Origin: an uncultured beta proteobacterium
GTDB taxonomy: Bacteria > Pseudomonadota > Gammaproteobacteria > Burkholderiales > SG8-41
Length of the DNA: 64,000 bases
Direction of reading: 5' to 3'
NCBI GenBank assembly: GCA_902825845.1
Contig: CADECM010000006.1
Coordinates: 1-64,000 of the forward strand
Part shown: piece by piece, positions 2,770-48,411 of the stretch
How the letters are laid out: each line of letters begins with the position of its first letter
How positions within the stretch are numbered: the stretch's first letter is position 1
Position numbers and translations under genes: made by a program
Notes under the pieces: model-generated
What the model was told of the DNA's origin: nothing
What the model saw: only the letters and a program-made list of their open reading frames with translations
Database searches by the model: none

Positions 2770-3081
2770 TCACGGTTTGACCGCGGCAAAGTACGCCGCG
2801 ATCTGTTCAAGTTGCGCGTCGGAATAGCCCTTGGCCTGCTGCGGCATGATGGTGCCCGGACGCTTGCCCGACTTGAAATCCATGAGCAGTTGCAGCAACT
2901 CCCCGCGTCCCCTGCCGGCGAGGCCCGGGGGCACGCCGCCCACGCTGCGCCCGTCGGTACCGTGGCAGGTGGAACAGGTGGCGGCAAGCGCGCGCCCAAA
3001 CGAGGCGTCCTGCGCAGACAGCGGCGTTGCCGCCACGGCCAGCAACGCAGCAGCACACGGGCCAATCCATGGATGTGTCAT
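2770..3081 (-). CDS. fccA: Monohaem cytochrome c, partner subunit of sulfide dehydrogenase
   Basis: A 103-residue exported cytochrome c. An N-terminal signal peptide (cleavage probably after PLSAQ) is followed by one haem-binding site CSTCH (36-40) and a likely axial Met79 in GTIMPQQ. Its size and position directly before fccB fit the electron-accepting subunit of flavocytochrome c sulfide dehydrogenase (FccA/SoxE type). No other sox genes are nearby, so sulfide detoxification or accessory electron supply is more likely than a full Sox pathway. That last point is inference from the window only. Confidence 0.85.
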   Translation of the reverse strand: MTHPWIGPCAAALLAVAATPLSAQDASFGRALAATCSTCHGTDGRSVGGVPPGLAGRGRGELLQLLMDFKSGKRPGTIMPQQAKGYSDAQLEQIAAYFAAVKP

Positions 3082-3217
3082 GTTTTTCTCCGTTGCAACG
3101 GAAAGGTGAGCACCCTAGTATAACAACGCAAAGACGGATACTATCAAGCGTACATTGCGATGGGTTTCAGTGCACGGTTTGTGCGTTTCGCCATATTCGA
3201 AGGTCTCCGCAGTCCCG

Positions 3218-4165
3218 ATGGTTCGTATTCTCGTCATCTGCTATACGCAGACCGGTCAACTTCGGAGAGTCGTGGAATCAATGCTCGCGCCGCTGATGCC
3301 ACGTTCCGACGTGGAGGTCATCTGGCATCAATTGTTGCCGCAGCCTGCGTACCCGTTTCCGTGGCCGTTTTTTTCATTTCTCGATGCCTTTCCCGAGTCG
3401 GTGTATCTCGATCCGCCCGCCGTTGCCGCCGGGAATTTCGATCCCGAAGGCGAATTTGATCTGATCATACTCGCCTATCAGGTGTGGTTTCTCGCACCGT
3501 CGCTGCCGATGACCGGCTTCCTGAAATCACCCGGGGCAAGGGTGCTGCGGGACAAGCGCGTCATCAGCGTCATCGCCTGCCGTAACATGTGGATCACCGC
3601 CCATTGCACTCTGTTGCGGGAGCTTGATCGTTTGGGCGCCCGACTGTCGGACAATGTGGTGCTCACCGACAACGGCCCGCTGTGGTCGACCTTCATCACC
3701 ACGCCCTGGTGGTTGCTGAGCGGCAACCAGGGCCCGCTGTTCAAGGTGTTGCCCAGAGCCGGCGTCAGCGAGCGCGACATTGCCCGGGCGGCGCGCTTCG
3801 GCAGCGCATTGGCCGATGCGTTGCCGCGGATCAAAGCCGGCGACCCCGGCCCTTTCCTCACCGGCCTGGAGGCCGTGCGTGTCAACCCGTTGACCATGCT
3901 GGGCGAGCACATCGGTCACCGCAGTTTCCGCATTTGGGGCCGCCTGGTGCGCCTCGCCGGACGCCCGGGACAGTTTGCGCGCAAGCCGATCCTGTTGATC
4001 TATGCGGTCTTTCTGGTTGGAGCGATCCTGCTGGTATTGCCTGTCACAATGACGGCCGCCGCCATCGCCGCGCGCCTGAGCCGGCGCATCCTGCAGAGGG
4101 CGAAGGCCCTCGAGTTGCCGTCGGGGTCATCCGGCGAACGACTCCCGCGTTATGACCCGGAGTAG
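3218..4165 (+). CDS. DarA-like (dialkylresorcinol condensing enzyme type) flavodoxin-fold protein
   Basis: A 315-residue protein starting MVRILVICYTQTGQL, a flavodoxin-like beta-strand and phosphate-binding loop. Segments such as YPFPWPFFSFLDAFPES and ILAYQVWFLAPSLP fit proteins annotated DarA. A hydrophobic helix (about 268-290, ILLIYAVFLVGAILLVLP) near the C-terminus suggests membrane association. It leads a plus-strand set with a KAS III-like enzyme, a small helical protein and a BtrH-like acyltransferase. DarA/DarB pairs join beta-keto acyl chains into dialkylresorcinols in characterised bacteria; here only the neighbourhood and fold support such chemistry. The start at 3218 was preferred over an in-frame ATG at 3155 because the fold begins there. 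Confidence 0.7.
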   Translation: MVRILVICYTQTGQLRRVVESMLAPLMPRSDVEVIWHQLLPQPAYPFPWPFFSFLDAFPESVYLDPPAVAAGNFDPEGEFDLIILAYQVWFLAPSLPMTGFLKSPGARVLRDKRVISVIACRNMWITAHCTLLRELDRLGARLSDNVVLTDNGPLWSTFITTPWWLLSGNQGPLFKVLPRAGVSERDIARAARFGSALADALPRIKAGDPGPFLTGLEAVRVNPLTMLGEHIGHRSFRIWGRLVRLAGRPGQFARKPILLIYAVFLVGAILLVLPVTMTAAAIAARLSRRILQRAKALELPSGSSGERLPRYDPE

Positions 4166-4205
4166 AATGCCAGCCCCATAAATCAATTGCGCCGCGTTAC
4201 GAACC

Positions 4206-5357
4206 ATGAATGAGGTCTTTATCGTCGACATGGGCAGCTTTCTACCCAATGCCGCGGTCGACAACGACACGATGGAGTCGGTACTGGGCGTGGTGGGCGA
4301 CCGCCCATCGCGCGCGCGCCGCCTCACGCTGCGCAACAACGGCATCCTGCTGCGCCACTACGCCATTGATCCGGCGAGCGGAAAGACGACCCACAGCAAC
4401 GCCGAATTGACGGCGGCCGCCGTGCGCCAGGGACTGCGGCGGGCGGGCTGGCACCTCGGCGACGTCGATGTGCTGGCCTGCGGCACCTCCTCACCCGACC
4501 AGCTCAAACCCGGCCATGCCGCCATGGTTCATGCCGAACTGGGTGACGCGCGCCTGGAAGCAGTTTCCACCGCCGGCGTGTGTTGCGCGGGCATGGCGGC
4601 ACTCAAATACGCCTACCTCATGGTCCGGACCGGCGAGTCCCGCCGCGCGGTGGCAACCGGTTCGGAACTGTGCTCAACTTTCATGGTGGCGCGCAACTTC
4701 TCGGCTGAATCGCCGGACCAGATTGCCAGGGCGGCTGAGCGTCCGGGCCTCGCGTTCGAGAAAGACTTTCTGCGCTGGATGCTGTCGGATGGCGCGGGAT
4801 CGGCGCTGCTGTCGCCGGCACCCAACGACGACCGGTTGTCGCTGCGCATTGAGTGGATCGAGGGTACCTCACTCGCCAACGAACTGCCGGTGTGCATGTA
4901 CACCGGCGCTGTCAAGCTCGCGGATGGCCGCCTGCGCGGCTGGCGCGATGCGGAGAATCCGCAGGCGCTGGTGCGCGAACATTACTTCGCCATCAAACAG
5001 GATGCACGCCTCCTCGACGAGCACATTGCGCGGCTGGCCGCGGCCGATACCATCGGCGTCATCCTGAAAAAGCGCGCGCTGCAGCCGGCACAAATCGATT
5101 GGTTTCTGCCGCACTATTCATCGCACTATTTTCGTCCGGTGCTGGCGGCGGCGCTGGCCGCGGCCGGCGTCGCGATTCCCGAAGATCGCTGGTTTTCCAA
5201 TCTTGCCACCGTTGGCAACGTCGGCGCAGGATCCATCTATCTCATGCTCGATGCGTTATGGCACGGCGGCAAGTTGGCGCGCGGCCAGCGCATTCTGTGC
5301 CTGGTGCCGGAAAGCGCGCGCTTTTCGGTGTACTACATGCTGCTGACCGTGGTGTAA
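4206..5357 (+). CDS. Beta-ketoacyl-ACP synthase III-like condensing enzyme (DarB-like)
   Basis: A 383-residue thiolase-fold enzyme. The nucleophilic Cys is Cys127 in GVCCAGM, the catalytic His is His303 in LPHYSSHYF, and Asn338 in VGNVGAGS completes the KAS III triad, so it should be active. The family condenses an acyl-CoA or acyl-ACP with a second acyl or malonyl unit. It follows the DarA-like gene by 40 bases and precedes the 132-residue gene by 4 bases. The arrangement fits a DarA/DarB-type resorcinol pathway or another specialised lipid; the product cannot be read from sequence alone. Confidence 0.85.
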   Translation: MNEVFIVDMGSFLPNAAVDNDTMESVLGVVGDRPSRARRLTLRNNGILLRHYAIDPASGKTTHSNAELTAAAVRQGLRRAGWHLGDVDVLACGTSSPDQLKPGHAAMVHAELGDARLEAVSTAGVCCAGMAALKYAYLMVRTGESRRAVATGSELCSTFMVARNFSAESPDQIARAAERPGLAFEKDFLRWMLSDGAGSALLSPAPNDDRLSLRIEWIEGTSLANELPVCMYTGAVKLADGRLRGWRDAENPQALVREHYFAIKQDARLLDEHIARLAAADTIGVILKKRALQPAQIDWFLPHYSSHYFRPVLAAALAAAGVAIPEDRWFSNLATVGNVGAGSIYLMLDALWHGGKLARGQRILCLVPESARFSVYYMLLTVV

Positions 5358-5361
5358 GTCG

Positions 5362-5760
5362 ATGCGCATAGAAGACATCCCCCAAGAACCCTCCATCCTC
5401 GACGGGCGCCTGCGTGCCTGCTACGCACGGAACGCCGCGGGCCGCTACGAAGTGGCAACCAGCAAAGGCTGGGAGGTGGAGCGCATCGCCAACCAACTGG
5501 CGGTGGGCGAGGTCAACGCGCATATCGCGTGCGCGCTGGCCGCCGTGCGCGCCGGCAAAGCCAGCGCGCTGGCCTACCACATGGCGCGCGCACACATGGA
5601 CGCGCGGCTGCTGGCGGCGCACAGCGGATTCTGGGTGTGGCAGGTGAAACGCCATATGCAGCCCCGCCATTTTCAACGCCTGGGGGAAAAGGCGTTGCGC
5701 CGTCACGCCGACGCCCTCGGCATTGACCTGGCCACGCTCACCGGCCCAGTGCCCGCGTGA
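5362..5760 (+). CDS. Uncharacterised helical protein in the condensing-enzyme operon
   Basis: A 132-residue protein without a family I recognise. It is Ala/Arg/His-rich and probably all alpha-helical (for example HIACALAAVRAGKASALAY), with no signal peptide or membrane segment. Its stop overlaps the GTG start of the next gene by 4 bases (GTGA), so it is surely translated with its neighbours. A role as a small accessory or scaffold for the KAS III/BtrH-like pair is plausible, but only from position. Confidence 0.75.
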   Translation: MRIEDIPQEPSILDGRLRACYARNAAGRYEVATSKGWEVERIANQLAVGEVNAHIACALAAVRAGKASALAYHMARAHMDARLLAAHSGFWVWQVKRHMQPRHFQRLGEKALRRHADALGIDLATLTGPVPA

Positions 5761-6770
5761 ACAAACCCGCGCGCGAGTTCGAGCACGCGCATTCCGCGCA
5801 CTGCGAGAGCGGCGCATTCACGGCGCTGTTGCGTCACAACGGCCTGCGACTCACGGAATCGCTGGTATTCGGCATCGGCAGCGGACTGTTTTTCCTCTAC
5901 TTCCCGCTGTTGAAAATATATGGTGCGCCGCTGGTGGCGTATCGCGATGCGCCCAATGCCATCATGACCCGCGGCGCGCGGCGTCTGGGCGTGCGTCTGC
6001 ATAAGGCGCGCTTTCGCGACGCGGACCGCGGCATGCGCGCGCTGGACCAGGCGCTCGCGGAGGGCGTGCCCGTGGGCATGCAGACGGGCGTATTCTGGCT
6101 GCCGTACTTTCCGCGCGATATGCGTTTTCAGTTTAACGGCCACCACGTGATCGCCTACGCCAAGGAGGCAGAGGAGTATCTGCTCAGCGATACGGTATTC
6201 GAAGCGGCGGTACGCTGTCACGAAGCCGACCTGCGCCGTGCGCGTTTCTCCAAAGGCCCGCTGGCACCGAAGGGGTTACTCTATCGCATCGTCGGTATCG
6301 ATGGCGAACCTGATCTGGCCGCCGCGGTTCGTGCGGGCCTCAAGACCACCACCTGGCGCATGCTCAAGATTCCCATTCGTTACATGGGCGTGAAAGGCAT
6401 CGGCACGCTGGCTCACGCGCTGGCATCGTGGCCCGCCACACTGCCGGACACCACTGCACGCAGTTGGCTCGCCAACATCATCCGCATGCAGGAAGAGATC
6501 GGCACGGGGGGCGGCGGCTTTCGCTACATGTACGCGGCGTTTCTCGATGAAGCCGCCGACATACTGAAACAACCGGCATTGCACGCCATCTCGGAGCAGT
6601 TCACCGACATCGGCGATCGTTGGCGTGACTTCGCGGTCGCGGGCGCCCAGGTGATACGGGATAACGACGCCTGCGCCGCCGCGTACGCCGCGCTTTCCGC
6701 GCGCATGCTTGACTGCGCCGCTCGCGAACAGCGGGCGTTCGAGGAAATCGGCAAGCTGCTCCACCGTTAA
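5757..6770 (+). CDS. BtrH N-terminal domain/DUF4872 protein, putative ACP-dependent acyltransferase
   Basis: A 337-residue protein whose N-terminal half resembles BtrH, the butirosin enzyme that moves an acyl group from a carrier protein to an amine. BtrH-type proteins have a papain-like Cys-His-Asp arrangement. Candidates here are Cys16 in HSAHCESGA, His129/130 in FNGHHVIAYA and Asp145 in LLSDTVFEA. The C-terminal half matches the DUF4872 portion of such proteins. Start is GTG at 5757, overlapping the previous stop. With an acyl carrier protein and two ketosynthase-like genes in the opposite arm, transfer or cyclisation of an ACP-bound acyl chain is the best guess. Confidence 0.78.
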   Translation: MNKPAREFEHAHSAHCESGAFTALLRHNGLRLTESLVFGIGSGLFFLYFPLLKIYGAPLVAYRDAPNAIMTRGARRLGVRLHKARFRDADRGMRALDQALAEGVPVGMQTGVFWLPYFPRDMRFQFNGHHVIAYAKEAEEYLLSDTVFEAAVRCHEADLRRARFSKGPLAPKGLLYRIVGIDGEPDLAAAVRAGLKTTTWRMLKIPIRYMGVKGIGTLAHALASWPATLPDTTARSWLANIIRMQEEIGTGGGGFRYMYAAFLDEAADILKQPALHAISEQFTDIGDRWRDFAVAGAQVIRDNDACAAAYAALSARMLDCAAREQRAFEEIGKLLHR

Positions 6771-6909
6771 AGGCGCTCTGCCGTACGCTGTCAGCGCAAA
6801 GCAACGGCGCCGACCACTGCCGCGCCACCACGTGTCAGGTGCACAGCGTTGCGCGCGCGAACTGTTAGGCCTTCCGGATTCCAGTGTCGCATCGGGGATC
6901 CAAGAATTA

Positions 6910-6938
6910 TTCAATAAAAACAATAGGTTATAGAGACC
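6910..6938 (+). repeat. Dispersed AT-rich motif, copy B
   Basis: Core TTCAATAAAAACAATAGGTT. It lies in the 297-base gap between the BtrH-like gene and the small membrane peptide. Apart from this copy, nothing else was recognised in 6771-7067. Confidence 0.6.
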
Positions 6939-7067
6939 TATCGCGCACCGGCCTAGCCCGTGGTCTATACCATCCGTTGTATTTTGCAAATGCGCAATGC
7001 GCCGCATCATGCGCCTCATACGCGGAATCATTTGATGACGCGCATCGTAACAACCTGTGGAGGGTAT

Positions 7068-7205
7068 ATGAACACGCTGAACATCCTTTTCACCAGCGGC
7101 AAGCGGGGCGCAACGGCCGCATGTTTCGCCGGCTTTTATTTGATCTCGCTCGGTGCCGTGCTCGGCATGATCGAAGGCACGCAGATGCTATTGGGTCTGA
7201 TCTGA
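7068..7205 (+). CDS. 45-residue single-span membrane peptide next to cydA
   Basis: Starts ATG at 7068 after a strong ribosome-binding site (TGGAGG, 5-10 bases upstream). The peptide begins MNTLNILFTSGKRGATAA and has one hydrophobic helix (about 18-40) ending in MLLGLI. It ends 26 bases before the cytochrome bd subunit I gene. Small single-span subunits such as CydX are known partners of bd oxidases, but this peptide has no clear similarity to CydX and precedes rather than follows the large subunit. A role as an accessory subunit is inference. Confidence 0.55.
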   Translation: MNTLNILFTSGKRGATAACFAGFYLISLGAVLGMIEGTQMLLGLI

Positions 7206-7231
7206 ACGCAACGCAGCCGGGAAATTTAGCC

Positions 7232-8608
7232 ATGGACATCGATCCCATTTTGCTCGCGCGCGTTCAGTTCGGACTGACCGCGTGTATTCATATCGTATTC
7301 CCCAGCCTGCTGATAGGTCTCGCGTCCTACATACTGGTGATGGAAGCGCTGTGGCTGAAAACCCGACGCCCCACCTATCGCGAACAATGGCTATTCTGGC
7401 TGAAGCCGTTTGCCGCGGTGTTTGTGGTCGCGGTGATTACCGGCGCCGTGCTGTCGTTTCAGCTCAATACGTTGTTCAGCGGACTGTATGAAAAAACCGC
7501 CGCGGTACTGGTGCCGATCCGCCGCATCGAGTTTGCCAACGCGTTGTTTGTCCTCGCGGGCTTTTTTGGCATCATGGTATGGGGCTGGCGGCGCTTTGCG
7601 CCACGCGCGCATTTTCTCGCCAGCCTGATTGTGCTGCTGGGCATCATGGTCTCGGTGGTGTGCGTGCTGGCCCGCAATTCATGGCTGCAGACGCCCGCGG
7701 GGTACGCGTTGGTTGACGGCGAAATTCAACTGACCAGCCTGGCGCAGGCCCTGTTCAATCCCTCGCTGCCCTACCGGCTGGCGCACATGGTCGGCGCTGC
7801 CTTGAGCAGCACGGCCTTTGTCATCATGGGCGTGTCGGCAGGCTATCTGCTGCGCGGCCGTCACCGCACATTTGCAAGCCTTGGCCTTCGCGCGGGCCTG
7901 CTGGCAGCAGCGGTATTGGTGCCCCTGCAGATGTTCTCTGGCGATTTGCACGGTCTCAATACCAGGGATTACCAACCCGCCAAACTTGCGGCAATGGAAG
8001 GTTTGTGGGAAACGACCCGCGGCGCACCGCTGGTGCTGTTCGCGTGGCCCGATGTCGAAGCCGGCAAAAACCGCTATTCGGTCGAGATTCCACGCCTGGC
8101 AAGTCTGATCGTCACCCATGACCTTAACGGCAAAATCACCGGCCTCAACGACGTACCCAAGTCCGAGCGCCCCTATGTGCCGATGGTGTTCTACAGTTTT
8201 CGGGTCATGGCGGGATTGGGGTTGTTGATGCTGGCCACGACAATCGCCGGCTTGATCCTGTTGCGCAGAAAGCGCCTCTACGATAGCCGCTGGTTTCTGC
8301 GCCTGGCCTGCTGCACGGCGCCCGCCGGCCTTGCCGCCACCATTGCCGGCTGGTGCGTCACCGAAACCGGCCGTCAGCCCTGGGTCATATACGGTCTGGT
8401 CAAAACAGCGGATATCGTCAACCCGTCGCACGCCGCGCAGAGCGCCGACTTCATCTTCTATGTGGCGATAGCCTACGTCGGCATCCTTGCCGCTTTCGGC
8501 CGCTACCTGCTGGGCGTGCTCCGGCGCGGGCCGGCGGCCACGGACGATGCGCGATTGACTCGCCAGACGACGACGCCCGAGCGGCCTGCCGCATCACGAT
8601 TGACGTGA
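7232..8608 (+). CDS. cydA: Cytochrome bd-type quinol oxidase subunit I (orphan CydA)
   Basis: A 458-residue membrane protein with about nine helices. It keeps His20 (E. coli His19 position), Glu100 (Glu99), His185 (His186), the Q-loop residues Lys251 and Glu256 in QPAKLAAMEG, Met326 (Met393) in FRVMAGLG, and the GW...ETGRQPW signature (373-384). The position of E. coli Glu107 is Leu108 here. It should bind haems and reduce oxygen with quinol electrons, but there is no subunit II (cydB) next to it. Start at 7232 (MDIDPILLARVQFG) begins exactly at the family's first helix. Its last 106 bases overlap the convergent ketosynthase-like gene. Confidence 0.88.
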   Translation: MDIDPILLARVQFGLTACIHIVFPSLLIGLASYILVMEALWLKTRRPTYREQWLFWLKPFAAVFVVAVITGAVLSFQLNTLFSGLYEKTAAVLVPIRRIEFANALFVLAGFFGIMVWGWRRFAPRAHFLASLIVLLGIMVSVVCVLARNSWLQTPAGYALVDGEIQLTSLAQALFNPSLPYRLAHMVGAALSSTAFVIMGVSAGYLLRGRHRTFASLGLRAGLLAAAVLVPLQMFSGDLHGLNTRDYQPAKLAAMEGLWETTRGAPLVLFAWPDVEAGKNRYSVEIPRLASLIVTHDLNGKITGLNDVPKSERPYVPMVFYSFRVMAGLGLLMLATTIAGLILLRRKRLYDSRWFLRLACCTAPAGLAATIAGWCVTETGRQPWVIYGLVKTADIVNPSHAAQSADFIFYVAIAYVGILAAFGRYLLGVLRRGPAATDDARLTRQTTTPERPAASRLT

Positions 8609-9522
8609 ACATAAGTGGAGCCATTTCGATGGTTCCCGGCGACAGTGCCAGCCACGGCAAGTGCCACAGCCGTAGGCAGACATCCGGTAACCCCCTGATA
8701 GTTGCAAAGTGCCGCAAGGGGTAAGCATGCCTGCAACGCCGTCGCCTGCGCCGGTGTCACGCGCAAACCGGGCATGAGCGCGAGCGGCGCGCCGGATTCG
8801 ACGAAGTGGCGGATACTGGCGGCCACGCGCGCCGCCCAGTCGTCATCCGCGATTGATGCGCCTGTTGCGGCAATGACGCGAACGCCGACCACTTCCCCAA
8901 TAGCGTCAGCAGGCATCGTGCCCAAAACCAGCCATGCGCTGCCCTCGCCGATACATCGGTCCGCGCTGGGCGGAAAACGCCGCACGTAGAATTCGCGCGG
9001 TCGCGTGGTTTCGTCTACGCCGCCCAGAAGTGCCATTGTCGAGACACCTGCGGCCATATCGTCGAGCGCCAGCTTAAGCGCATGCTCGAAAGACAGATCA
9101 TGCTGCGATATCGTAACGTTTCGGGATAACAGGCCGAGTTGCTGCGCCACGAAAAACGCGGCCATGTTATTGCCGGATGTTGCAAATTGCGCCGGGGAAG
9201 CCATTTCACCGCTCGGCGGCATGACCTGATAGTAAAGCGCATCGGTACGAGCGACGTCGCCCAGACCCGTGGCAAGGTAAACGGGCGTGGCCGGCGCCAA
9301 TGGTCTATCCCCTTGGCCAACGCACTGGCGGGCGCCCAGAACGGCCAGTTGCACGAAGCGGGATGCGAGCCGCGGCAGCGGGATGTTCAGGGCCTGTGCG
9401 GATTGCCGCAGATCCACGGGACTGGCATCGGCGTTCAACGGCGCCGTTGCGCCAAGCGCCGCCGCCGGCACGGCATTCGGACCAATACCGCCGGCCGCAT
9501 GAATGAAGGCGCTCGCAGGCAC
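8503..9522 (-). CDS. Ketosynthase-like protein lacking the active-site Cys (chain-length-factor-like)
   Basis: A 339-residue thiolase-fold protein, GTG start, one base after the preceding ketosynthase. At the place where ketosynthases carry the nucleophilic Cys it reads SQHDLSFEHAL, with Asp142 aligned to Cys, so it cannot form the acyl-enzyme. Such partners (chain length factors, FabB/F-like heterodimer halves) pair with an active ketosynthase and shape the product. The neighbouring KS is the obvious partner. Its C-terminal 35 codons overlap the 3' end of cydA on the other strand; the terminal residues (SSVAAGPRRSTPSR) are low-complexity and may not be ancestral. Confidence 0.78.
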   Translation of the reverse strand: MPASAFIHAAGGIGPNAVPAAALGATAPLNADASPVDLRQSAQALNIPLPRLASRFVQLAVLGARQCVGQGDRPLAPATPVYLATGLGDVARTDALYYQVMPPSGEMASPAQFATSGNNMAAFFVAQQLGLLSRNVTISQHDLSFEHALKLALDDMAAGVSTMALLGGVDETTRPREFYVRRFPPSADRCIGEGSAWLVLGTMPADAIGEVVGVRVIAATGASIADDDWAARVAASIRHFVESGAPLALMPGLRVTPAQATALQACLPLAALCNYQGVTGCLPTAVALAVAGTVAGNHRNGSTYVHVNRDAAGRSGVVVWRVNRASSVAAGPRRSTPSR

Positions 9523-9523
9523 G

Positions 9524-10693
9524 CTAGGAAAACGCCATCACCAGCGAAGTGTAGTTGCCGCCAAATCCGAAGAAATTCAGCAGGTAAAACCCTTCGGACG
9601 CCGGCAATTGCGTGCGGTTTGGCGCAACGCTGATTTCAGGATCAAGCACGCTGAATCCCGCCGTGGGCGGCACGAAGCCGTGCTGCAGGCAACCGATCAA
9701 TGCCGTCGTTTCAACAGCGCCACACGCCCCCAAAGTATGGCCAAGGAAGCGCTTCAATCCCACGACAGGCGGCAAGGCGTCGCCAAATACGCTGCGCAGG
9801 GCGCTGCCCTCGGCACGGTCGCTGTCGACACTACCGGTGCCGTGAGCCTTGACCGCGACAATGTCAACGGGCCGGGCGCCGGCGCGCGACATCGCCTGTA
9901 ACATGACCTCATGCATCACACGGCCGTCGGGACTGGCGCTGGTCAGGTGATGCGTGTCGCACAAATTGGCCCCGCCGCATATCCTCGCGCCGCGTTGCCC
10001 TTCGGCATGCGCTTCCAGCGCTTCCAGCATAAGGGCCGCAATGCCTTCGCCGATCTGCAATCCCGCGCGATGGCGATCAAACGGGCGGCAACCTTCGGGG
10101 TCGAGCAGCATTAGCGATGCAAAGCCACTCAGGGTAACGGCGCTCAATCCCTCGGCACCCACCACCAGTGCGCGGCGGGCATGGCCACGCTGCAGCATTT
10201 CCGTCGCCACCAAAAGCGCATTGGCGCTGGACGAGCAGCCCGTACTCAGCGTCAAGACGGTGCCGCGCATTTGCAGATGGGCAGCAATCAGATCGCTGCC
10301 CCAGGCCGGCCCGCGCACCTGAAACGGCGCATGCGGCGCATGCGCCTGCCGGGACCGCGAGTACAGTTCGGCGCCGGAAGCGTAAAGGAAGCCGCCGCCA
10401 CCGACAATAAGCGCCGTATCCTCGCCGCGCAAAGCATCGGCTTGCCCATTCCAGCAGGCTAAGAGTTGGTCAATCACGGTCAGCAACTGCGTTGCCGCAC
10501 CCGCCTCTCCCGGCGGCCAAGCGCATGCAGGGTACCCGCTCACCCGCGGCGGATCGGTCTCCGGATAGCCAATGTCCGTAGCCGCGCGCACCGGACAATG
10601 GCCGGCGCGCATGCCTTCGACCATCACCGGAACGCCCGCACCATATGCGGTCAGCGCACCTACCGCCGCAATGCGCGTCGCAGCCGTCACCAT
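9524..10693 (-). CDS. Beta-ketoacyl-ACP synthase, active ketosynthase
   Basis: A 389-residue FabF/KS-alpha-type condensing enzyme. The full catalytic set is present: Cys153 in STGCSSSANAL, His284 in KAHGTGSVDSD and His319 in GHTLGACGAVE. It would extend acyl-ACP chains using the carrier protein encoded 3 bases upstream, probably as a heterodimer with the Cys-less protein downstream. Arrangement ACP-KS-KS' resembles type II polyketide and aryl-polyene clusters more than primary fatty acid synthesis. Confidence 0.88.
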   Translation of the reverse strand: MVTAATRIAAVGALTAYGAGVPVMVEGMRAGHCPVRAATDIGYPETDPPRVSGYPACAWPPGEAGAATQLLTVIDQLLACWNGQADALRGEDTALIVGGGGFLYASGAELYSRSRQAHAPHAPFQVRGPAWGSDLIAAHLQMRGTVLTLSTGCSSSANALLVATEMLQRGHARRALVVGAEGLSAVTLSGFASLMLLDPEGCRPFDRHRAGLQIGEGIAALMLEALEAHAEGQRGARICGGANLCDTHHLTSASPDGRVMHEVMLQAMSRAGARPVDIVAVKAHGTGSVDSDRAEGSALRSVFGDALPPVVGLKRFLGHTLGACGAVETTALIGCLQHGFVPPTAGFSVLDPEISVAPNRTQLPASEGFYLLNFFGFGGNYTSLVMAFS

Positions 10694-10696
10694 GCC

Positions 10697-10975
10697 TCAG
10701 ACGGTCTGCTGCCGGATATACTCGGCGAGACTATTGACGCTGGCCATGACACGGCGAGCGTGATTGCCGTCGCGTATGCGGATGCCGAAACGCTTGCTGA
10801 CCGCAACCGCCGCCTGCAGGGCGTCGAGCGAATCCAGGTCCAGCACGGAGTTCGCGCCCACCAGCACGCCCTGGTCGTCAACGGCCTCGGGCGCCATTTC
10901 GCGCTCACACGCGGCAATGATCACGCGCTTGATCTCCAATCGCAGTTCGTCTTCGTTTTCAGGAATGGGTATCAT
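10697..10975 (-). CDS. Acyl carrier protein
   Basis: A 92-residue acidic four-helix carrier. Ser49 in LDLDSLDALQ is the phosphopantetheine attachment site (DSL motif). The start at 10975 (MIPIPENEDELR) overlaps the permease stop codon in an ATGA arrangement, indicating coupled translation. The sequence around the Ser is unlike housekeeping AcpP (no DELDSLD-x-VELVM continuation), which supports a dedicated carrier for this cluster. Confidence 0.88.
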   Translation of the reverse strand: MIPIPENEDELRLEIKRVIIAACEREMAPEAVDDQGVLVGANSVLDLDSLDALQAAVAVSKRFGIRIRDGNHARRVMASVNSLAEYIRQQTV

Positions 10976-12237
10976 CGCAGGTGAGCACGGGTTGAATAGC
11001 GCCAGAGCGCAATCGCAAAACACATCGCGGCGAACGCCAACAGACGTCCAATGTGGGGCAATAAGTCGGACAGGCCCGCATCCCGCACAAAAAGTTCAAG
11101 GAATCCGTCCAGCGCCCAACCCAGCGGAGAGTACGCGGCGATCATCTGCAATGTCGCCGGCATCAGCATTTTGGGTACCATGATGCCGCCCAGTGCGGCG
11201 AGCAATAGTATCGCAGTTGCGCCAAAGGCCGTTGCCTGTTCCGTGGTCCGGGCGAACAGGGCAACCAACAGGCCAAAACCAATGGCCGCCAGACTGGCGG
11301 CCATTGACAGGACGACGATGCCCGACAACGAATGGCCAAAGCGCAGCGCCTCGCCGCCGAGCAGCGGCAACAGGAATATGCCGACAGCAAAACACAGGGC
11401 CATCTGCAGCAAATTAATCGCGAGATAGGGCAAGACCTTTCCACCCACCACCACGCCAGAAGACACTGGCATGGACTCGAGCCGCAACAAACTGCCCTGA
11501 TCGCGTTCCTTGATGAAGGTGGTGGACAGCGGCACCACCAGCAGAAAGATCGCGAGCAGGCTGTAGGCAGGGACATTTTGCTGCGTTGCGTTCGGCTGCA
11601 ACTGGCGTTGCGACGGCGCGTTTTCCGCCTCGCCCAGCCGCAATCTGCCTTGATGACGCCCGCCGTCGCGGAAAAACGCGGGATCAAACGCGACGCCGGA
11701 TACGGCGGCGTTGATGCGCCGCGCCTCTATCGAGGACAACAGACCCGCCAGCGCCGTGCGTGCCAGTGTCAGATGGTCCGAACGCAGCGTCGGGTCGGCG
11801 ATGAAGGTTACTTCGATGACCGGCTTCGCTGGTGCGGCGCGTGCCGGATCGGCGCCCGCGCCAATCGCCGCCGCATCGAAACGCCGAGTCACGCCGGGCG
11901 GCAACAACAGCGCAAAGCGAACTTTGCCGCCCTTCACCTCATCCCGCAGCTGTTGTTCGGCTGCCGCATAATTGCCCGGCGTGCGATGCTCAACCTTGAA
12001 GTAGGACATCGCTGCCGCGCCGTAACCGATGGCTTGCGCCAGTTGGCCGCGATCGCCGTCGAGTACCGCGAGGCTGAATTGCGGGTCCGAACCCTGGCGC
12101 AGAAAATCCTGCAGCGCAAGGGACATGATGATTACGAAGCCCACCGGCATTACAAACAGGATCGCCAGTCCCTCGCGATCGCGCAGGATCACGCGCAGCT
12201 CCTTGGCGGCGCTGATGAGCAGCTTACGCAGCATCAC
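10972..12237 (-). CDS. ABC-2 type transporter permease
   Basis: A 421-residue permease with one N-terminal helix (about 26-45), a large extracytoplasmic domain (about 50-250), then five to six C-terminal helices, the usual layout of ABC-2 exporters of the YhhJ/DrrB kind. It overlaps the 3' end of the ATPase gene by 14 bases. Placed between the methyltransferase/ATPase and the ACP/KS genes, it probably exports the pathway product or its lipid precursor; substrate is not shown by sequence. Confidence 0.87.
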   Translation of the reverse strand: MMLRKLLISAAKELRVILRDREGLAILFVMPVGFVIIMSLALQDFLRQGSDPQFSLAVLDGDRGQLAQAIGYGAAAMSYFKVEHRTPGNYAAAEQQLRDEVKGGKVRFALLLPPGVTRRFDAAAIGAGADPARAAPAKPVIEVTFIADPTLRSDHLTLARTALAGLLSSIEARRINAAVSGVAFDPAFFRDGGRHQGRLRLGEAENAPSQRQLQPNATQQNVPAYSLLAIFLLVVPLSTTFIKERDQGSLLRLESMPVSSGVVVGGKVLPYLAINLLQMALCFAVGIFLLPLLGGEALRFGHSLSGIVVLSMAASLAAIGFGLLVALFARTTEQATAFGATAILLLAALGGIMVPKMLMPATLQMIAAYSPLGWALDGFLELFVRDAGLSDLLPHIGRLLAFAAMCFAIALWRYSTRAHLR

Positions 12238-13198
12238 GGTTGGCGCCGCCGTCGCGCAGGGCTTTGCCGGTCAGCTGGAAAAACAGCGCCTCCAGATCGC
12301 GATGGCCCATGGTCGCTTCGGTGGCGATCAGGCCATGGCGCCGGCCCAGCGCCAGTGCCGCGGACAGCGTCGCTTCCGGATTTACGGTAACCAATGCAGC
12401 CCGGCAGCCGTCGTGACGCACGTCGGTGACGAAGGGGATCCCGCCCAGCGCGGCAATCAGCGCGGCTGGCGGGTAGACTTCCCAGCCCAGCGTCACCACG
12501 TCCTGCCGCAGCAACTCGCGCAGATCGCCGTGCGCGATCACCCGGCCATCGTCGATCACAGCCACGGTGTTGCATAACTGCTGCACTTCGTCGAGGTAAT
12601 GCGATGTGTAGATTATCGTCATGCCGGCGGCGTTCAGCCGCTTCAACTCGTCCCCCAAGAACCGCCGCGATTGCGCATCGACGCCTGCAGTCGGCTCATC
12701 CAGCACCAACACACTCGGCGAGTGTACAACGCCGATGGCAAGACTGAGCCGGCGTTTGAGGCCACCTGACAGCGTTTCGGCGCGCCGATCCTGCAGCGAC
12801 TGCAAACGCCCCACGGCCAGCGCGGCGTCAACGCCACGACTCAAGGCCGCACCGGCCAGACCTTGCATGGCGCCAAAATAGCGCAGATTTTCCATCACAG
12901 ATAGCGTCGGATAGAAGGCAAGCTCCTGCGGTACCAGTCCGAAAAACGAGCGCGCCGCGCGCGGGGCCAACCAGACGCCATCGGGTGCGCGCAGTCGAAT
13001 CCGCCCCGAGCTTGGCGCAAGTAGCCCGCAGAGAATGGATATCAAGGTTGTCTTGCCGGCGCCATTGGGTCCCAGCAGGGCAAAGAAGTCCCCCTCCGCT
13101 ATGACCAAGTCGACACTGTCCAGCGCGGCGCGGGGTGCGCCGCGATAAGTCTTGCATAGCGCCTCAACCGCTATCCTGGATGACGTGCCCGTACTCAT
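12224..13198 (-). CDS. ABC transporter ATP-binding protein, exporter type
   Basis: A 324-residue ATPase with Walker A GPNGAGKT (43-50), signature LSGGLKRR, Walker B VLVLDEPTAG and switch His in IIYTSHYLDE. A C-terminal extension of about 100 residues after the nucleotide-binding domain is common in DrrA/CcmA-type exporters. It pairs with the overlapping ABC-2 permease and starts 11 bases after the methyltransferase stop codon. Confidence 0.9.
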   Translation of the reverse strand: MSTGTSSRIAVEALCKTYRGAPRAALDSVDLVIAEGDFFALLGPNGAGKTTLISILCGLLAPSSGRIRLRAPDGVWLAPRAARSFFGLVPQELAFYPTLSVMENLRYFGAMQGLAGAALSRGVDAALAVGRLQSLQDRRAETLSGGLKRRLSLAIGVVHSPSVLVLDEPTAGVDAQSRRFLGDELKRLNAAGMTIIYTSHYLDEVQQLCNTVAVIDDGRVIAHGDLRELLRQDVVTLGWEVYPPAALIAALGGIPFVTDVRHDGCRAALVTVNPEATLSAALALGRRHGLIATEATMGHRDLEALFFQLTGKALRDGGANRDAA

Positions 13199-13209
13199 GC
13201 CGCGCGCCG

Positions 13210-14247
13210 CTACACCGGGACCTGCGCTTCGATGATGCTTGCCGATGCCGCCGTCGGGATCAGGTTCAATTTTCCAAATCCGGCGTCTCGCAGCAACGCC
13301 TGGTACTCCTGCACCGTGCGCTCCCTGCCGCCGGTGACCAACATCATTTCGAGGTCGATCAGCTTGCCGGGGTGCGGTTCGTCCCCGCCCGGCAAGACAT
13401 GCTCCACGATCAGCAGGCTTCCGCCGCCGCTCATCGCGGCGCGCACGTTGCGCAGCACGGCAGTAGCCTCGCGGTCCTCCCAGTCATGCAGGACCGACGA
13501 CAGCACATAGATGTCGCCGCCCACTGGGACAGTTTCGAAAAAATCCCCCGCGATGGTCCGGCAGCGGCCGGCCACGCCACGGTGTTGCAACAGTGCATCC
13601 GCGCCGGCAAGCACCTCGGCGCGATCAAACAGGATGCCCCGTGCCTTCGGCGCCTGTTCGAGGATGGTCGCGAGCAGCGCGCCCTGTCCGCCGCCGACAT
13701 CAACGATTTGCGCGGCGGTTGCAAAATCATAGGCGTCGATCACCGCGCCATTCACCTGCGCCGCATAGCCGCTCATCGCCGCATTGAATAGGGAGGCGGA
13801 CCGCGGGTGGTGCGCCAGGTAATCGAAGCAGTTGGGCGAATCGTGACGCAATACTATCGCTGGTGTTCCACTGCGAACGCTGTCAACGATCGCGCCCCAG
13901 GTATTCCAGTGCCAGGCATCGCCCTGAAAGCGCGAGAAGGCGGCAAGATTGCCCGGCATGTCACGGCGCAGCAGCGCCCCCATCGGCGTCTGCACAAACC
14001 CCCGAGGAATCGCCTCGGAAAAAATACCCGCGCTGGCCAGTGCGCGCATAACCCGGTACAGCGACGGGCCATGAGCGCCTGTCGCCTGCGCCAGTTCATC
14101 GACGGAACGCGCGCGCCTCCCCAGCAGATCGGCGATGCCGAGTTCCGCGGCGACATGGATCGCCTGTCCTATCCAATAACCGCAGATCAGGTTCAGCAAC
14201 TGGCCGGCCGGCGAAAAACCCTGTACGGGATCAGCGTCGCGCAGCAC
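13210..14247 (-). CDS. SAM-dependent O-methyltransferase (hydroxyneurosporene methyltransferase type)
   Basis: A 345-residue class I methyltransferase with an N-terminal winged-helix dimerisation domain (about 15-100) and a Rossmann domain carrying the SAM motif VDVGGGQG (182-189). His254 in SVLHDWEDRE is the likely catalytic base of this plant-COMT-like family, which methylates hydroxyls on aromatic or polyene substrates. It starts with GTG 12 bases after the clpA stop and is followed closely by the ABC exporter. It may tailor the product of the ketosynthase cluster. Confidence 0.85.
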   Translation of the reverse strand: MLRDADPVQGFSPAGQLLNLICGYWIGQAIHVAAELGIADLLGRRARSVDELAQATGAHGPSLYRVMRALASAGIFSEAIPRGFVQTPMGALLRRDMPGNLAAFSRFQGDAWHWNTWGAIVDSVRSGTPAIVLRHDSPNCFDYLAHHPRSASLFNAAMSGYAAQVNGAVIDAYDFATAAQIVDVGGGQGALLATILEQAPKARGILFDRAEVLAGADALLQHRGVAGRCRTIAGDFFETVPVGGDIYVLSSVLHDWEDREATAVLRNVRAAMSGGGSLLIVEHVLPGGDEPHPGKLIDLEMMLVTGGRERTVQEYQALLRDAGFGKLNLIPTAASASIIEAQVPV

Positions 14248-14259
14248 GTCGCCAGCAAA

Positions 14260-16527
14260 TCAAACGACGCTGGCTTCCGGATTCTTCTCTTCGGAAAAGA
14301 GCAGTTTGACTTTCTCGTCAGCATCGAGATCGACGGTGACCTTGCCGCCGCTCGCAAGTTTTCCGAACAGCAATTCATCCGCCAGTGCGCTGCGGATGGT
14401 GTCCTGTATCAGCCGCGCCATCGGCCGCGCGCCCATGGCAGGATCGAAGCCCTTTTTCGCAAGATAAGCCTTGAGCGCCGGGGTAAACGTGATTTCGACT
14501 TTCTTCTCGTGCAATTGGTCTTCCAGCTGCATCAGGAACTTGTCGACCACGCGCAGAATGATCTGCTGATCGAGCGCCGCGAACGATATCGTTGCATCCA
14601 GGCGATTGCGGAATTCCGGCGTGAACAGGCGTTTGATCTCCCCCATCTCATCACCCGTCTGTTTGCTCGGCGCAAAACCCATGCTGGTTTTCGACAATTC
14701 GGATGCGCCTGCATTGGTGGTCATGATGATCACCACGTTGCGGAAATCGGCCTTGCGCCCGTTGTTGTCGGTGAGCGTGCCGTGATCCATCACCTGCAGC
14801 AGGATGTTGAAAATATCCGGATGCGCCTTCTCGATTTCGTCGAGCAGCAGCACCGAATACGGCTGCTTGGTGATCGCCTCGGTCAACAAACCGCCCTGAT
14901 CGAAGCCAACGTATCCTGGCGGCGCACCGATCAGTCGCGACACCGCGTGGCGCTCCATGTACTCCGACATATCGAAGCGGATCAACTCCACACCCATCAC
15001 GTACGCCAGCTGCCGCGCCACCTCGGTCTTGCCCACGCCCGTCGGACCCGAAAACAGGAAGCTGCCAATCGGCTTTAATGGATTACCAAGGCCGCTGCGC
15101 GCCATCTTGATCGCTGTCGTCAGCGCATCGATGGCCTTATCCTGACCAAATACGGTGGCCTTCAGATCACGGCCCAGCGTCTTCAGGGAATTGCGGTCGT
15201 CGGTGGACACGGTCTGCGGGGGGATGCGCGTGATCTTTGCCACCACCTCCTCGATTTCGTGCTTGCTGATGACCTTTTTCTGCTTCGACTTCGGCAGGAT
15301 GCGCTGTGCCGCGCCCGCTTCGTCAATCACGTCGATCGCCTTGTCTGGCAGATGGCGGTCATTGATGAAGCGCGCCGACAGCTCCGCCGCGGCGGTCAAC
15401 GCAGCCGCCATGTACTTGACGCCGTGATGCTCCTCGAAACGCGACTTCAGCCCCTTGAGAATTTGCACGGTTTCTTCCACCGACGGTTCCAGCACGTCGA
15501 TCTTCTGGAAGCGCCGCGACAGCGCGTGGTCTTTTTCGAACACACCGCGAAACTCGGTGTAGGTTGTGGCGCCGATGCACTTGAGTTGGCCGTTGGACAG
15601 CGCAGGTTTCAACAGATTGGACGCGTCGAGCGTGCCGCCCGACGCCGCGCCCGCGCCGATCAATGTATGAATTTCATCGATAAACAAAATCGCATGCGGG
15701 TTTTCCTGCAACTGCTTGAGCACCGCCTTAAGCCGCTGCTCGAAATCGCCGCGATACTTGGTGCCCGCCAGCAACGCGCCCATGTCCAGCGCATAAACTG
15801 TGCTTTTCTGCAGGATATCGGGCACGCTGTCCTCGACAATGCGCCGCGCCAGTCCTTCGGCAATGGCCGTTTTGCCCACGCCGGCCTCGCCCACCAGCAG
15901 CGGGTTGTTCTTGCGGCGGCGGCACAGAATCTGGATGGCGCGCTCCAACTCCTTGTCGCGCCCGATCAAGGGATCGATTTTGCCCTGCTGCGCCAGCGCA
16001 TTGAGGTTCAGCGTGTAATTTTCCAGCGCGCCGCCGGCGCCGGGAGATTCCTGCTCGGCCTCGGCTTCGTTATCGGCCTTGGCCGGCGCCGCCTGCGCGG
16101 CCTTGCTGATGCCGTGAGAAATGAAATTCACCACGTCCAGCCGCGTCACGCCCTTCTGGTTCAGGAAAAACACCGCGTGCGAGTCCTTCTCCCCGAAAAT
16201 CGCCACCAGCACATTGGCGCCGGTCACCTCCTTCTTGCCCGAGGACTGCACGTGAAGGATGGCGCGCTGAATCACGCGTTGAAATCCCAGCGTGGGCTGG
16301 GTATCGACTTCATCACCCGTCAGGATCGGGGTATGTTCGGTAACGAAATCCTGAAGCAGTTTGCGCAAATCATCGACATCCACAGCGCAGGCCTTCAGCA
16401 CTTCGGACGCAGACGGATTATCCAGCAGCGCCAACAGCAGATGCTCCACGGTAATGAACTCGTGGCGCTTCTGGCGGGCCTCCATGAAGGCCATATGCAG
16501 GCTGACTTCCAGTTCCTGAGCAATCAT
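14260..16527 (-). CDS. clpA: ATP-dependent Clp protease ATP-binding subunit ClpA
   Basis: A 755-residue AAA+ unfoldase that feeds substrates to ClpP. Domains in order: N-terminal Clp repeat domain (1-140) that binds ClpS, an acidic Ala/Glu linker, D1 with Walker A GEAGVGKTA and Walker B LFIDEIH, D2 with Walker A GPTGVGKTE and Walker B LLLDEIE. Length and order are those of proteobacterial ClpA (E. coli 758). It follows clpS by 60 bases. ClpP is not in the window. Confidence 0.97.
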   Translation of the reverse strand: MIAQELEVSLHMAFMEARQKRHEFITVEHLLLALLDNPSASEVLKACAVDVDDLRKLLQDFVTEHTPILTGDEVDTQPTLGFQRVIQRAILHVQSSGKKEVTGANVLVAIFGEKDSHAVFFLNQKGVTRLDVVNFISHGISKAAQAAPAKADNEAEAEQESPGAGGALENYTLNLNALAQQGKIDPLIGRDKELERAIQILCRRRKNNPLLVGEAGVGKTAIAEGLARRIVEDSVPDILQKSTVYALDMGALLAGTKYRGDFEQRLKAVLKQLQENPHAILFIDEIHTLIGAGAASGGTLDASNLLKPALSNGQLKCIGATTYTEFRGVFEKDHALSRRFQKIDVLEPSVEETVQILKGLKSRFEEHHGVKYMAAALTAAAELSARFINDRHLPDKAIDVIDEAGAAQRILPKSKQKKVISKHEIEEVVAKITRIPPQTVSTDDRNSLKTLGRDLKATVFGQDKAIDALTTAIKMARSGLGNPLKPIGSFLFSGPTGVGKTEVARQLAYVMGVELIRFDMSEYMERHAVSRLIGAPPGYVGFDQGGLLTEAITKQPYSVLLLDEIEKAHPDIFNILLQVMDHGTLTDNNGRKADFRNVVIIMTTNAGASELSKTSMGFAPSKQTGDEMGEIKRLFTPEFRNRLDATISFAALDQQIILRVVDKFLMQLEDQLHEKKVEITFTPALKAYLAKKGFDPAMGARPMARLIQDTIRSALADELLFGKLASGGKVTVDLDADEKVKLLFSEEKNPEASVV

Positions 16528-24275: not shown

Positions 24276-25691
24276 ATGGTGAATCCGGATCAAGCCGCGC
24301 GTCGCGCGCTTCCCTCGGTAGACCGGCTTCTTTCCACGGAAGCGGTATCGGCGCTGATCGGGCAGTTCGGCCGCATGCTGACGGTTGATGTGATTCGCGA
24401 TCTTTTGCAGGCGCAGCGCGACAAACTGGCGCAGGACAACAACCATTTCGCGTTCGACGAAGCCGCGTTTGTTGCCGCCTGCCGCGACGAAGTCGGCAAA
24501 CGCAATCAGCCGTCGTTGCGTCCGGTGTTCAATCTCACCGGTACGGTATTGCACACCAACCTCGGCCGCGCACTGATGCCGCAGTCGGTGGCCGACGCGG
24601 TGATGACCGCGATGACGCGTCCGGTCAATCTCGAATTCGATCTCGGCGGTGGCGCACGCGGCGAACGCGACACCCATGTCGAAAAATGGATCACACGGCT
24701 CGCCGGCGGCGACGGCGCGGTGGTGGTCAACAACAATGCCGCGGCGGTGTACCTTGTGCTCAATACGCTGGGCGCAAAAAGGGAAGTGCTGGTGTCGCGC
24801 GGCGAGCTGATCGAAATCGGCGGCGCATTCCGCATCCCCGACATCATGAAGCGCGCGGGCGTCAAACTGATTGAAGTCGGCGCCACCAACCGCACGCATC
24901 TCAAGGATTTCGCCGAAGCGATCACCCCGCGCACCGCCGCGATCATGAAGGTGCATACCAGCAACTACGCGATTCAGGGCTTCACCTCGGCCGTGCCGGA
25001 GCCCGATCTGGCTCAACTCGCGCACGACCACGGTATGCCGTACATCGTCGACCTCGGCAGTGGCATGCTGGTCAATCTGGAAGACTACGGCCTGCCGCAT
25101 GAACCCACGCCAAAAGAAGCGCTCGCCAATGGCGCCGATCTGGTCACCTTCAGCGGCGACAAATTGCTGGGCGGCCCGCAAGCCGGCCTGATGGTGGGGA
25201 AAAAGGATTTGATCGCGCGCATTCGCAGGAATCCCATGAAGCGCGCGCTGCGCGTGGACAAGATCACGCTGGCCGCGCTCGACGCACTGCTGCGCCTCTA
25301 CACGCATCCTGAAAAACTGCGCGAGGAAGTCACCACCCTGCGCCTGCTGACACGCACACGCGACGACATCCGGGTGCAGGCCGAACGCGTGCTGCCGCAC
25401 CTGCAGGCGGCACTTGGCGAACGCGCTCAGGCCGCAGTCATCGACTGCGGCAGCCAGATTGGCAGCGGCTCGCTGCCGGTGGACTCGTTACCCAGCGCCG
25501 GCATTGCAATCACGCCGGCTGGAAAACGCCGGGGATCCTTTGCGGACAAACTATCGCTCGCGTTCCGCGCGTTGCCGGTGCCGGTGATTGGACATATCCG
25601 CGATGGCGCTTTCATACTCGATCTGCGCTGCCTGGATGCCCGGCACGAAGCGGAGTTCCTGCACCAGTTACCGCAACTACGCTTTTCATAA
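24276..25691 (+). CDS. selA: L-seryl-tRNA(Sec) selenium transferase SelA
   Basis: A 471-residue PLP enzyme that converts Ser-tRNA(Sec) to Sec-tRNA(Sec) with selenophosphate. The N-terminal tRNA-binding domain is followed by the fold-type I PLP core: FNLTGTVLHTNLGRA, VVVNNNAAAV, and Lys296 in FSGDKLLGGPQAG as the Schiff-base lysine (E. coli Lys295). Length is close to E. coli SelA (463). selB follows 33 bases downstream. The 166-base gap to the divergent UGSC gene should hold both promoters; no clear box was found. Confidence 0.97.
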   Translation: MVNPDQAARRALPSVDRLLSTEAVSALIGQFGRMLTVDVIRDLLQAQRDKLAQDNNHFAFDEAAFVAACRDEVGKRNQPSLRPVFNLTGTVLHTNLGRALMPQSVADAVMTAMTRPVNLEFDLGGGARGERDTHVEKWITRLAGGDGAVVVNNNAAAVYLVLNTLGAKREVLVSRGELIEIGGAFRIPDIMKRAGVKLIEVGATNRTHLKDFAEAITPRTAAIMKVHTSNYAIQGFTSAVPEPDLAQLAHDHGMPYIVDLGSGMLVNLEDYGLPHEPTPKEALANGADLVTFSGDKLLGGPQAGLMVGKKDLIARIRRNPMKRALRVDKITLAALDALLRLYTHPEKLREEVTTLRLLTRTRDDIRVQAERVLPHLQAALGERAQAAVIDCGSQIGSGSLPVDSLPSAGIAITPAGKRRGSFADKLSLAFRALPVPVIGHIRDGAFILDLRCLDARHEAEFLHQLPQLRFS

Positions 25692-25695
25692 AGTT

Positions 25696-25720
25696 GTTTA
25701 AAAACAAATACTTACAATAA
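25696..25720 (+). repeat. Dispersed AT-rich motif, copy D
   Basis: Core GTTTAAAAACAAATACTTAC, in the 33-base selA-selB gap, ending just before the selB ATG. It occupies the place where a ribosome-binding site would be, and none is visible. Confidence 0.75.
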
Positions 25721-25724
25721 CACA

Positions 25725-30199: not shown

Positions 30200-31174
30200 T
30201 CAGTCGATCTTCATGCCGGTGGACGCCACGACCTTGCCCCATTTGACCGTCTCCGCGCGGATGTGCGCGGCGAATTCCTCGCCGCTGCTGCCGACGGGCT
30301 CGAATCCCATCCCCAGCAATTTCTCGCGCATGTCCGGCGCGCGAATGACTTTGACGAACTCGGCATTCAACCGGGTCATGATGTCCGGCGGCGTGCCGGC
30401 AGGCGCCAGCACACCGTTCCACGACGTCACCTCATAGCCCGGCAGACCCGACTCCGTCACCGTGGGCAGTTGCGGCATCCCCAGCGAACGGCGGCCGCTG
30501 GTGACGGCAATGGCGCGCAACTTGCCCGCGTTAATGAACGGCACCACGCCGGCCGGTTCGCCCAGAATCACCGGCGACTCGCCGGTGAGCACGGCCAGTG
30601 ACGCCGCGGCGCCGCCCTTGTACGGCACATGCACTATGTTTATTCCGGCCATGCTCTTGAACAATTCGCCCGCCAGATGGTTGACCGCGCCGTTGCCGCT
30701 GGAGCCATACGAGAGTTGCCCCGGCCGCGCGCGCGCGAGCGCAATCAGATCCTTGATGTTCTTCACCGGCAGCGCGGGATGCACCACGACGACTTGCGGC
30801 ACCTGCGACAGCCATGAAATGGGGGCGAAGTCGCTGCCCTTGAACGGCATTTTCCGGTACAGGCTGGGATTGATCGCATGCGTGCCGGAGTAAGCGAACA
30901 CGATGGTGTAGCCGTCCGCCGGCGCACGCGCTGCGATTTCGGTCCCGATGTTACCCGCAGCACCGGGGCGGTTCTCGATGATGAAGTTGCGGCCGACGAA
31001 CTCCGACAATTTCGGCGCAAGCAATCGCGAGAGCACATCCGCGCCGCCACCCGGGGGCCAGGGAACAATAAAGCGGATAGGCTTCGATGGCCACGGCTGC
31101 GCGGTCGCGCAACTGGCGGCAGTTGCAAGCGCGACGGCAATCGGGCACATGATGCGGCGCGCAAACAATTTCAT
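30200..31174 (-). CDS. Bug/TctC-family tripartite tricarboxylate receptor protein
   Basis: A 324-residue periplasmic binding protein. Signal peptide (MKLFARRIMCPIAVALATAA, cleavage after CATAQ), then PWPSKPIRFIVPWPPGGGAD, the family hallmark that binds carboxylates. Start at 31174 has SD GAGGAG 8 bases upstream. No tctA/tctB permease genes are nearby, as is usual for orphan Bug receptors. It may serve the flavoprotein substrate, but pairing is only by position. Confidence 0.92.
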   Translation of the reverse strand: MKLFARRIMCPIAVALATAASCATAQPWPSKPIRFIVPWPPGGGADVLSRLLAPKLSEFVGRNFIIENRPGAAGNIGTEIAARAPADGYTIVFAYSGTHAINPSLYRKMPFKGSDFAPISWLSQVPQVVVVHPALPVKNIKDLIALARARPGQLSYGSSGNGAVNHLAGELFKSMAGINIVHVPYKGGAAASLAVLTGESPVILGEPAGVVPFINAGKLRAIAVTSGRRSLGMPQLPTVTESGLPGYEVTSWNGVLAPAGTPPDIMTRLNAEFVKVIRAPDMREKLLGMGFEPVGSSGEEFAAHIRAETVKWGKVVASTGMKID

Positions 31175-31451
31175 GAAAATCACTCCTCGCTGTTTAACGA
31201 CGTATGGATGGCTCGACCCCCGGCAGCCGCCTTCTTGACGCGGGATTTTCTGCAGGCATCCTCACGGCTCCGCCACCACGCGATCGGGATTTACGCAGCC
31301 CAGAGAATACCATTCCTTTTCCCTGTGCCGCGATACCGCGCGGCGGCAAGCGGAACGCCACGCACCCGATCGCGATGCGGTGTACAGCGCCCCATACACA
31401 GGACGCAAGGGATCGCTCGTGCCTCCAGCGCGATCCCTGCAACAGGCCGGG

Positions 31452-48251: not shown

Positions 48252-48411
48252 CGAAATCCTCGGGGCTGAAATAGAAAGGGCGCTATCGTAACCCCATCGC
48301 AAGAAAAGCGCGCGCTTGCGCCGCGTGATCGCCGCCGCGTCTTGCGCATCGCATCGCAATATGAAATCCTAGCTGGACGCGGTATGCGCGTCTCCAGGGT
48401 ACACGCTCTTC

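Follow-up and report, generated by a model that had tools for sequence, protein, structure and literature searches.

A block of 11 kb in the genome of an uncultured beta proteobacterium (SG8-41) is a gene cassette of a known type, comprising genes for dialkylresorcinol synthesis and for the joining of the resorcinol to an aryl-polyene, as in the pigments arcuflavin and flexirubin. It lies in the window, the 64,000 nt stretch of DNA analysed here (contig CADECM010000006.1, positions 1-64,000; assembly GCA_902825845.1), and the assembly consists of 207 contigs with an estimated completeness of 100% and contamination of 2.68%. The locus very probably covers one half of an arcuflavin/flexirubin-type pathway, the half for dialkylresorcinol formation and coupling, with such a pigment as the predicted product. 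The block is divided into a plus-strand and a minus-strand arm, and its genes and flanks are as follows.

2770-3081, minus: cytochrome c gene, left flank
3130..14259: inserted block, ~11.1 kb long, with the cytochrome c gene and clpA on either side; left edge approximate
3218-4165, plus: darA, dialkylresorcinol aromatase-like, flavodoxin-like fold with C-terminal helices
4206-5357, plus: darB, StlD/DarB-family ketosynthase/cyclase (NF005293, 534 bits, cut-off 450)
5362-5760, plus: DarG-family protein of 132 aa, Azoarcus darD by position (NF053536, 139 bits, cut-off 70)
5757-6770, plus: darH (Azoarcus darE), BtrH_N/DUF4872, BtrH-related acyltransferase (NF053550, DarH_acyl, 423 bits, cut-off 300)
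7232-8608, plus: orphan, diverged cydA, cytochrome bd subunit I (PF01654, 437 bits)
8503-9522, minus: darK-like, ketosynthase-related, lacking the active-site Cys (PF00109, 22 bits)
9524-10693, minus: darJ-like ketosynthase (PF00109 and PF02801)
10697-10975, minus: darC-like acyl carrier protein with a DSL motif (NF006617, 49 bits, under the cut-off of 70)
10972-12237, minus: darI-like ABC-2 permease (PF12698, 105 bits)
12224-13198, minus: darF-like ABC ATPase (PF00005, 94 bits; drrA, 208 bits, under the cut-off)
13210-14247, minus: methyltransferase (TIGR02716, 47 bits, far under the cut-off)
14260-16527, minus: clpA, right flank

The ten genes named in the initial annotation are all present, and to them must be added the orphan cydA between the arms, which it had left out. 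The same annotation had described many junctions as overlapping by 1-14 bases; this is the case for three, those between the DarG and DarH genes (4 bases), the permease and carrier protein genes (4 bases) and the ATPase and permease genes (14 bases), the remaining junctions within the arms being gaps of 1-40 bases. The likely start of darC is the ATG at 10975, its open frame extending to 11023.

A match to an already characterised pathway had been named as evidence against the initial proposal, and such a match exists: by annotation and order, the gene set is that of the arcuflavin dialkylresorcinol cluster of Azoarcus BH72. There, azo0283-0293 comprise darK, darJ (ketosynthase), darC (acyl carrier protein), darI (permease), darH/darG (PilT, PHD), darF (ATPase), darE (BtrH-like), darD, darB and darA (Schoner et al. 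2014, Table 1, PMC3949708). The window has counterparts of darA, darB, darD, darE, darF, darI, darC, darJ and darK, identified by annotation and order. The names used here follow NCBIfam; its DarG is equivalent to Azoarcus darD and its DarH to Azoarcus darE, as judged from position and annotation. In both organisms the polyene genes lie elsewhere in the genome, unlinked to the dar genes; in Azoarcus the two arc loci are physically unlinked and the dar genes fall under separate locus numbers (PMC3949708). By contrast with Azoarcus, the second half of the window's cluster is inverted, cydA lies between the arms, a methyltransferase gene occupies the outer end, the PilT/PHD pair is lacking and no XanB2-type chorismatase was detected in the genome. 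The flexirubin clusters of Chitinophaga and its relatives (PMC3992019) likewise combine darA-darB-DarG-DarH with an ABC pair, acyl carrier protein and ketosynthase in most loci; these differ in being co-linear, and their DarA and DarH proteins are 28-45% identical to those of the window. The locus thus belongs to a known type of pathway, with its genes rearranged.

That the two arms constitute one locus, as originally suggested, is borne out both by related loci and by the insertion site. Among 80 loci with DarH collected for neighbourhood comparison, all of which had DarG (80/80), DarA and DarB were present at 55; these two together with the ABC pair were found at 53, so that both arms are represented, and at 50 the acyl carrier protein and ketosynthase were found as well, the ABC pair, carrier protein and ketosynthase being united in one locus in the window and in Azoarcus also. 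Gene order is co-linear in most DarH loci, and a tail-to-tail layout like that of the window was found in three (L010, from a Betaproteobacteria metagenome-assembled genome, L011 and L061). In all seven congeners read, the site is empty, and the cytochrome c and flavoprotein genes that flank the block in the window come immediately after clpA; the left flank resembles these genomes up to near 3129, and the right flank as far as the stop codon of clpA. The edges of the block fall within 3082-3217 and 14248-14262. The empty site in seven congeners implies that the ~11.1 kb forms a single presence/absence unit, and its gain is the likelier reading given the sporadic distribution. Synteny and the single insertion rule out the arms being unrelated neighbours. 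Base composition gave no signal of foreign origin, the GC content of the block (63.4%) being uninformative against ~62% in its surroundings. Several congeners have a GC-rich hairpin and T-run 3' of clpA; these are missing from the window, where no terminator-like site was found between clpA and the methyltransferase gene, and read-through from clpA into the minus-strand arm is therefore possible. A scan for consensus promoters found nothing.

The adjacent darA and darB would supply the resorcinol. The chemistry of their products is known from homologues expressed in heterologous hosts, in which the two alone suffice for dialkylresorcinol formation (PMC3949708, PMC3992019): DarB would condense two thioesters derived from fatty acids into a cyclohexane-1,3-dione, which DarA would oxidise to the dialkylresorcinol. 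The DarB ketosynthase retains, as had been noted, an intact Cys-His-Asn set (Cys126/127, His303 and Asn338), and scores 465 bits against the stricter resorcinol_DarB exception model, short of its cut-off of 550. DarA had no Pfam or NCBIfam matches in profile searches, and is 28-60% identical to the product of the gene preceding darB in 32 loci. Its AlphaFold model (pLDDT 91) has a flavodoxin-like N-terminal part, with PnpB, WrbA and other FMN proteins as the best meaningful fold matches; matches to membrane receptors were dismissed as helical-bundle artefacts. A sequence search with the DarA profile gave a weak match to a flavoprotein (E 0.0004). A flavin role for DarA, suggested by the modelled fold, is reasonable because conversion of the cyclohexanedione to the resorcinol is a two-electron oxidation.

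Adjoining darB are the genes for DarG and the BtrH-like DarH, both of which exceed their NCBIfam cut-offs. DarH has the Cys-His-Asp triad and the predicted two-domain fold of BtrH/CtaG-like acyltransferases: Cys16, His129 and Asp145 are invariant in an alignment of 37 homologues, and in whole-fold comparison its predicted structure (pLDDT 92) matches AziU2-U3, CtaG and CcbD (E 6e-10 to 1e-6), the predicted fold being alike over most of its length to these BtrH relatives of solved structure. Searching PDB sequences with the DarH profile returned chance helical matches only. The triad of CtaG (C11, H128, D144) occurs in the same order and with similar spacing, and the variants in CtaG structure entries are C11A, H128A and D144N; the title of the CcbD entry names a PCP domain. 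AziU2-U3, CtaG and CcbD use carrier-protein thioesters. DarH differs from them in being 10-20% identical in sequence, and in its expected acceptor, a phenol hydroxyl, and acyl group, a polyene. Family, triad, fold and co-occurrence together support DarH as the proposed enzyme coupling polyene to resorcinol: the polyene would be loaded onto Cys16 and then moved to a resorcinol hydroxyl, giving an ester. For flexirubin, the ligase-like FlxW was earlier proposed to carry out the coupling step (PMC3992019). The Azoarcus mutants on record are in arcK and arcT, none being in the dar genes, and this was counted against the preferred explanation.

An alternative is that the product of the locus is a dialkylresorcinol in free form, like that of Pseudomonas chlororaphis, which DarF/DarI would export uncoupled while the polyene cluster on contig C14 makes a separate pigment. 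The sufficiency of DarA and DarB in heterologous hosts is compatible with this, as is the location of the dar locus and the polyene cluster on different contigs; however, it is very unlikely given the distribution of DarH, which among the genomes sampled occurs in exactly those with a canonical DarB, all of which have a polyene ketosynthase. In a sample of 250 genomes of the same order, with counts uncorrected for relatedness, DarH exceeded its cut-off in six, and DarB exceeded its own in exactly those six. The polyene ketosynthase was present in 74 of the 250, including all six with DarH (chance 0.0006, ignoring relatedness), and twelve genomes with weaker DarB relatives had no DarH above the cut-off. 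DarB was also found in every one of 24 further DarH genomes searched (above the cut-off in 23, and split over two contigs in one). At 25 of the 80 DarH loci, DarA and DarB were not nearby and DarG and DarH were paired (L016, L018, L028 and L033, for instance); that DarG and DarH act apart from DarB was ruled out, DarB being encoded elsewhere in 21/21 such genomes searched. A distant DarH relative was observed in genome G152 as two pieces (L096 and L097; 61 and 33 bits) of one 539-codon open frame; this genome has a polyene ketosynthase, but the search for DarB, at the threshold applied, gave no match in it. The free dialkylresorcinol also fits poorly with a DarH whose fold and triad are those of carrier-protein acyltransferases, and with the L010 locus, where polyene genes surround the dar cassette, those on its two sides being homologues of arcM and arcK; in the genome studied here, 40 bases separate these two genes on C14.

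The polyene to be coupled would be provided by this second cluster.

C14:3514-16687: aryl-polyene cluster (L006) of the same genome

Its polyene ketosynthase (C14:11845-13029) scores 575 bits against NF006618 (cut-off 407). The cluster also encodes an acyl carrier protein, AMP-ligase, FabZ-like dehydratase, ketoreductase, acyltransferase, a further ketosynthase and ketosynthase-like protein, two methyltransferases, LolA, an MMPL-type exporter, polysaccharide deacetylase and MipA. The LolA matches the flexirubin LolA2 family under its cut-off, and a 157-aa protein with no Pfam match is ArcI-like by position only. By homology, the AMP-ligase, carrier protein, ketosynthase, ketosynthase-like protein, ketoreductase, dehydratase, methyltransferases, LolA and MMPL exporter would together produce a carrier-bound aryl-polyene.

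The minus-strand arm would contribute further functions to the coupled pathway. DarJ keeps a Cys-His-His set (Cys153, His284, His319) and has 7f28 and 6qsp as its best solved-structure matches; the active-site Cys is missing from DarK in all five homologues aligned, and this protein is possibly chain-length-factor-like. With DarC, they would form a carrier protein and a ketosynthase/chain-length-factor-like pair that probably lengthens an acyl chain or passes it on, which is the weakest step of the scheme. DarF/DarI may export an intermediate or the product, and the product of 13210-14247, probably an O-methyltransferase, may methylate one or the other; L010 has a homologue of it in the corresponding position (442 bits).

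As a plausible ketosynthase/chain-length-factor/carrier protein set, judged by sequence, DarC, DarJ and DarK could instead build the chain of a stand-alone lipid, with primary metabolism supplying the reducing steps. The initial annotation had noted that ketoreductase, dehydratase and AMP-ligase are absent, which holds for the locus; in the genome, all three are on C14 in a dedicated polyene cluster, and activation, reduction and dehydration need not fall to primary metabolism as had been supposed. With that cluster present and the gene set matching the arcuflavin dar cluster, a stand-alone lipid is extremely improbable. The outline proposed initially still stands as the predicted pathway: a single route to a resorcinol/polyene lipid, in which a BtrH-type enzyme would transfer the acyl group from a carrier protein and an ABC transporter would handle export.

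Neither a XanB2-type chorismatase nor an aromatic ammonia-lyase was detected in the genome, and the lack of either source for the aryl starter was also counted against the coupled pigment. The search for the XanB2/ArcB-type chorismatase (PF21168), which would provide the 3-hydroxybenzoate starter of arcuflavin proper, found none in the genome and was positive in 5/9 DarH genomes; that for the aromatic ammonia-lyase (PF00221), which would provide the 4-coumarate starter of flexirubin proper, found none in the genome and was positive in control genomes. C. pinensis, by contrast, uses a tyrosine ammonia-lyase for its flexirubin starter (PMC3992019). It is tentatively suggested, as something that may well not be so, that the aryl head comes from a third route, yielding neither XanB2-derived hydroxybenzoate nor ammonia-lyase-derived coumarate, which would add a pigment not yet described to the arcuflavin/flexirubin class.

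The cydA gene is inside the block but probably not a member of the pathway. Its 3' end overlaps the darK-like gene on the opposite strand by 106 bases, and no cydB adjoins it at the locus; cydB is adjacent in 11/11 of the nearest CydA homologues checked, and the genome's only cydB lies beside a second cydA on contig C97. Relative to seven aligned homologues, the conserved FFLEAGFLG reads LFVLAGFFG and TNW reads TLF, with the likely haem ligands kept. Its position within the inserted block without an adjoining cydB, and the combination of changed conserved sites with retention of the probable haem ligands, would suit a role in this version of the pathway, for instance as a membrane oxidase in resorcinol or polyene maturation; such a role is very unlikely, however, as none of the other dar loci examined has a cydA, the tail-to-tail L010, L011 and L061 included. 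Directly upstream of cydA, a 45-codon frame (7068-7205) encodes a small hydrophobic protein.

Elsewhere in the window, judging from translations only, two adjoining long genes (24276-27746) resemble selA and selB of the selenocysteine machinery, and five genes resemble Bug/TctC-type solute receptors (30200-31183, 31452-32546, 33968-34987, 47298-48359 and 52331-53293).

With DarH in six of the 250 sampled genomes of its order, the locus would otherwise be one more sporadic case. Its significance is that the dialkylresorcinol-coupling genes are found or missing as one cassette at one defined site, and that DarH is given a testable role, in ester formation in both flexirubin and arcuflavin pigments.
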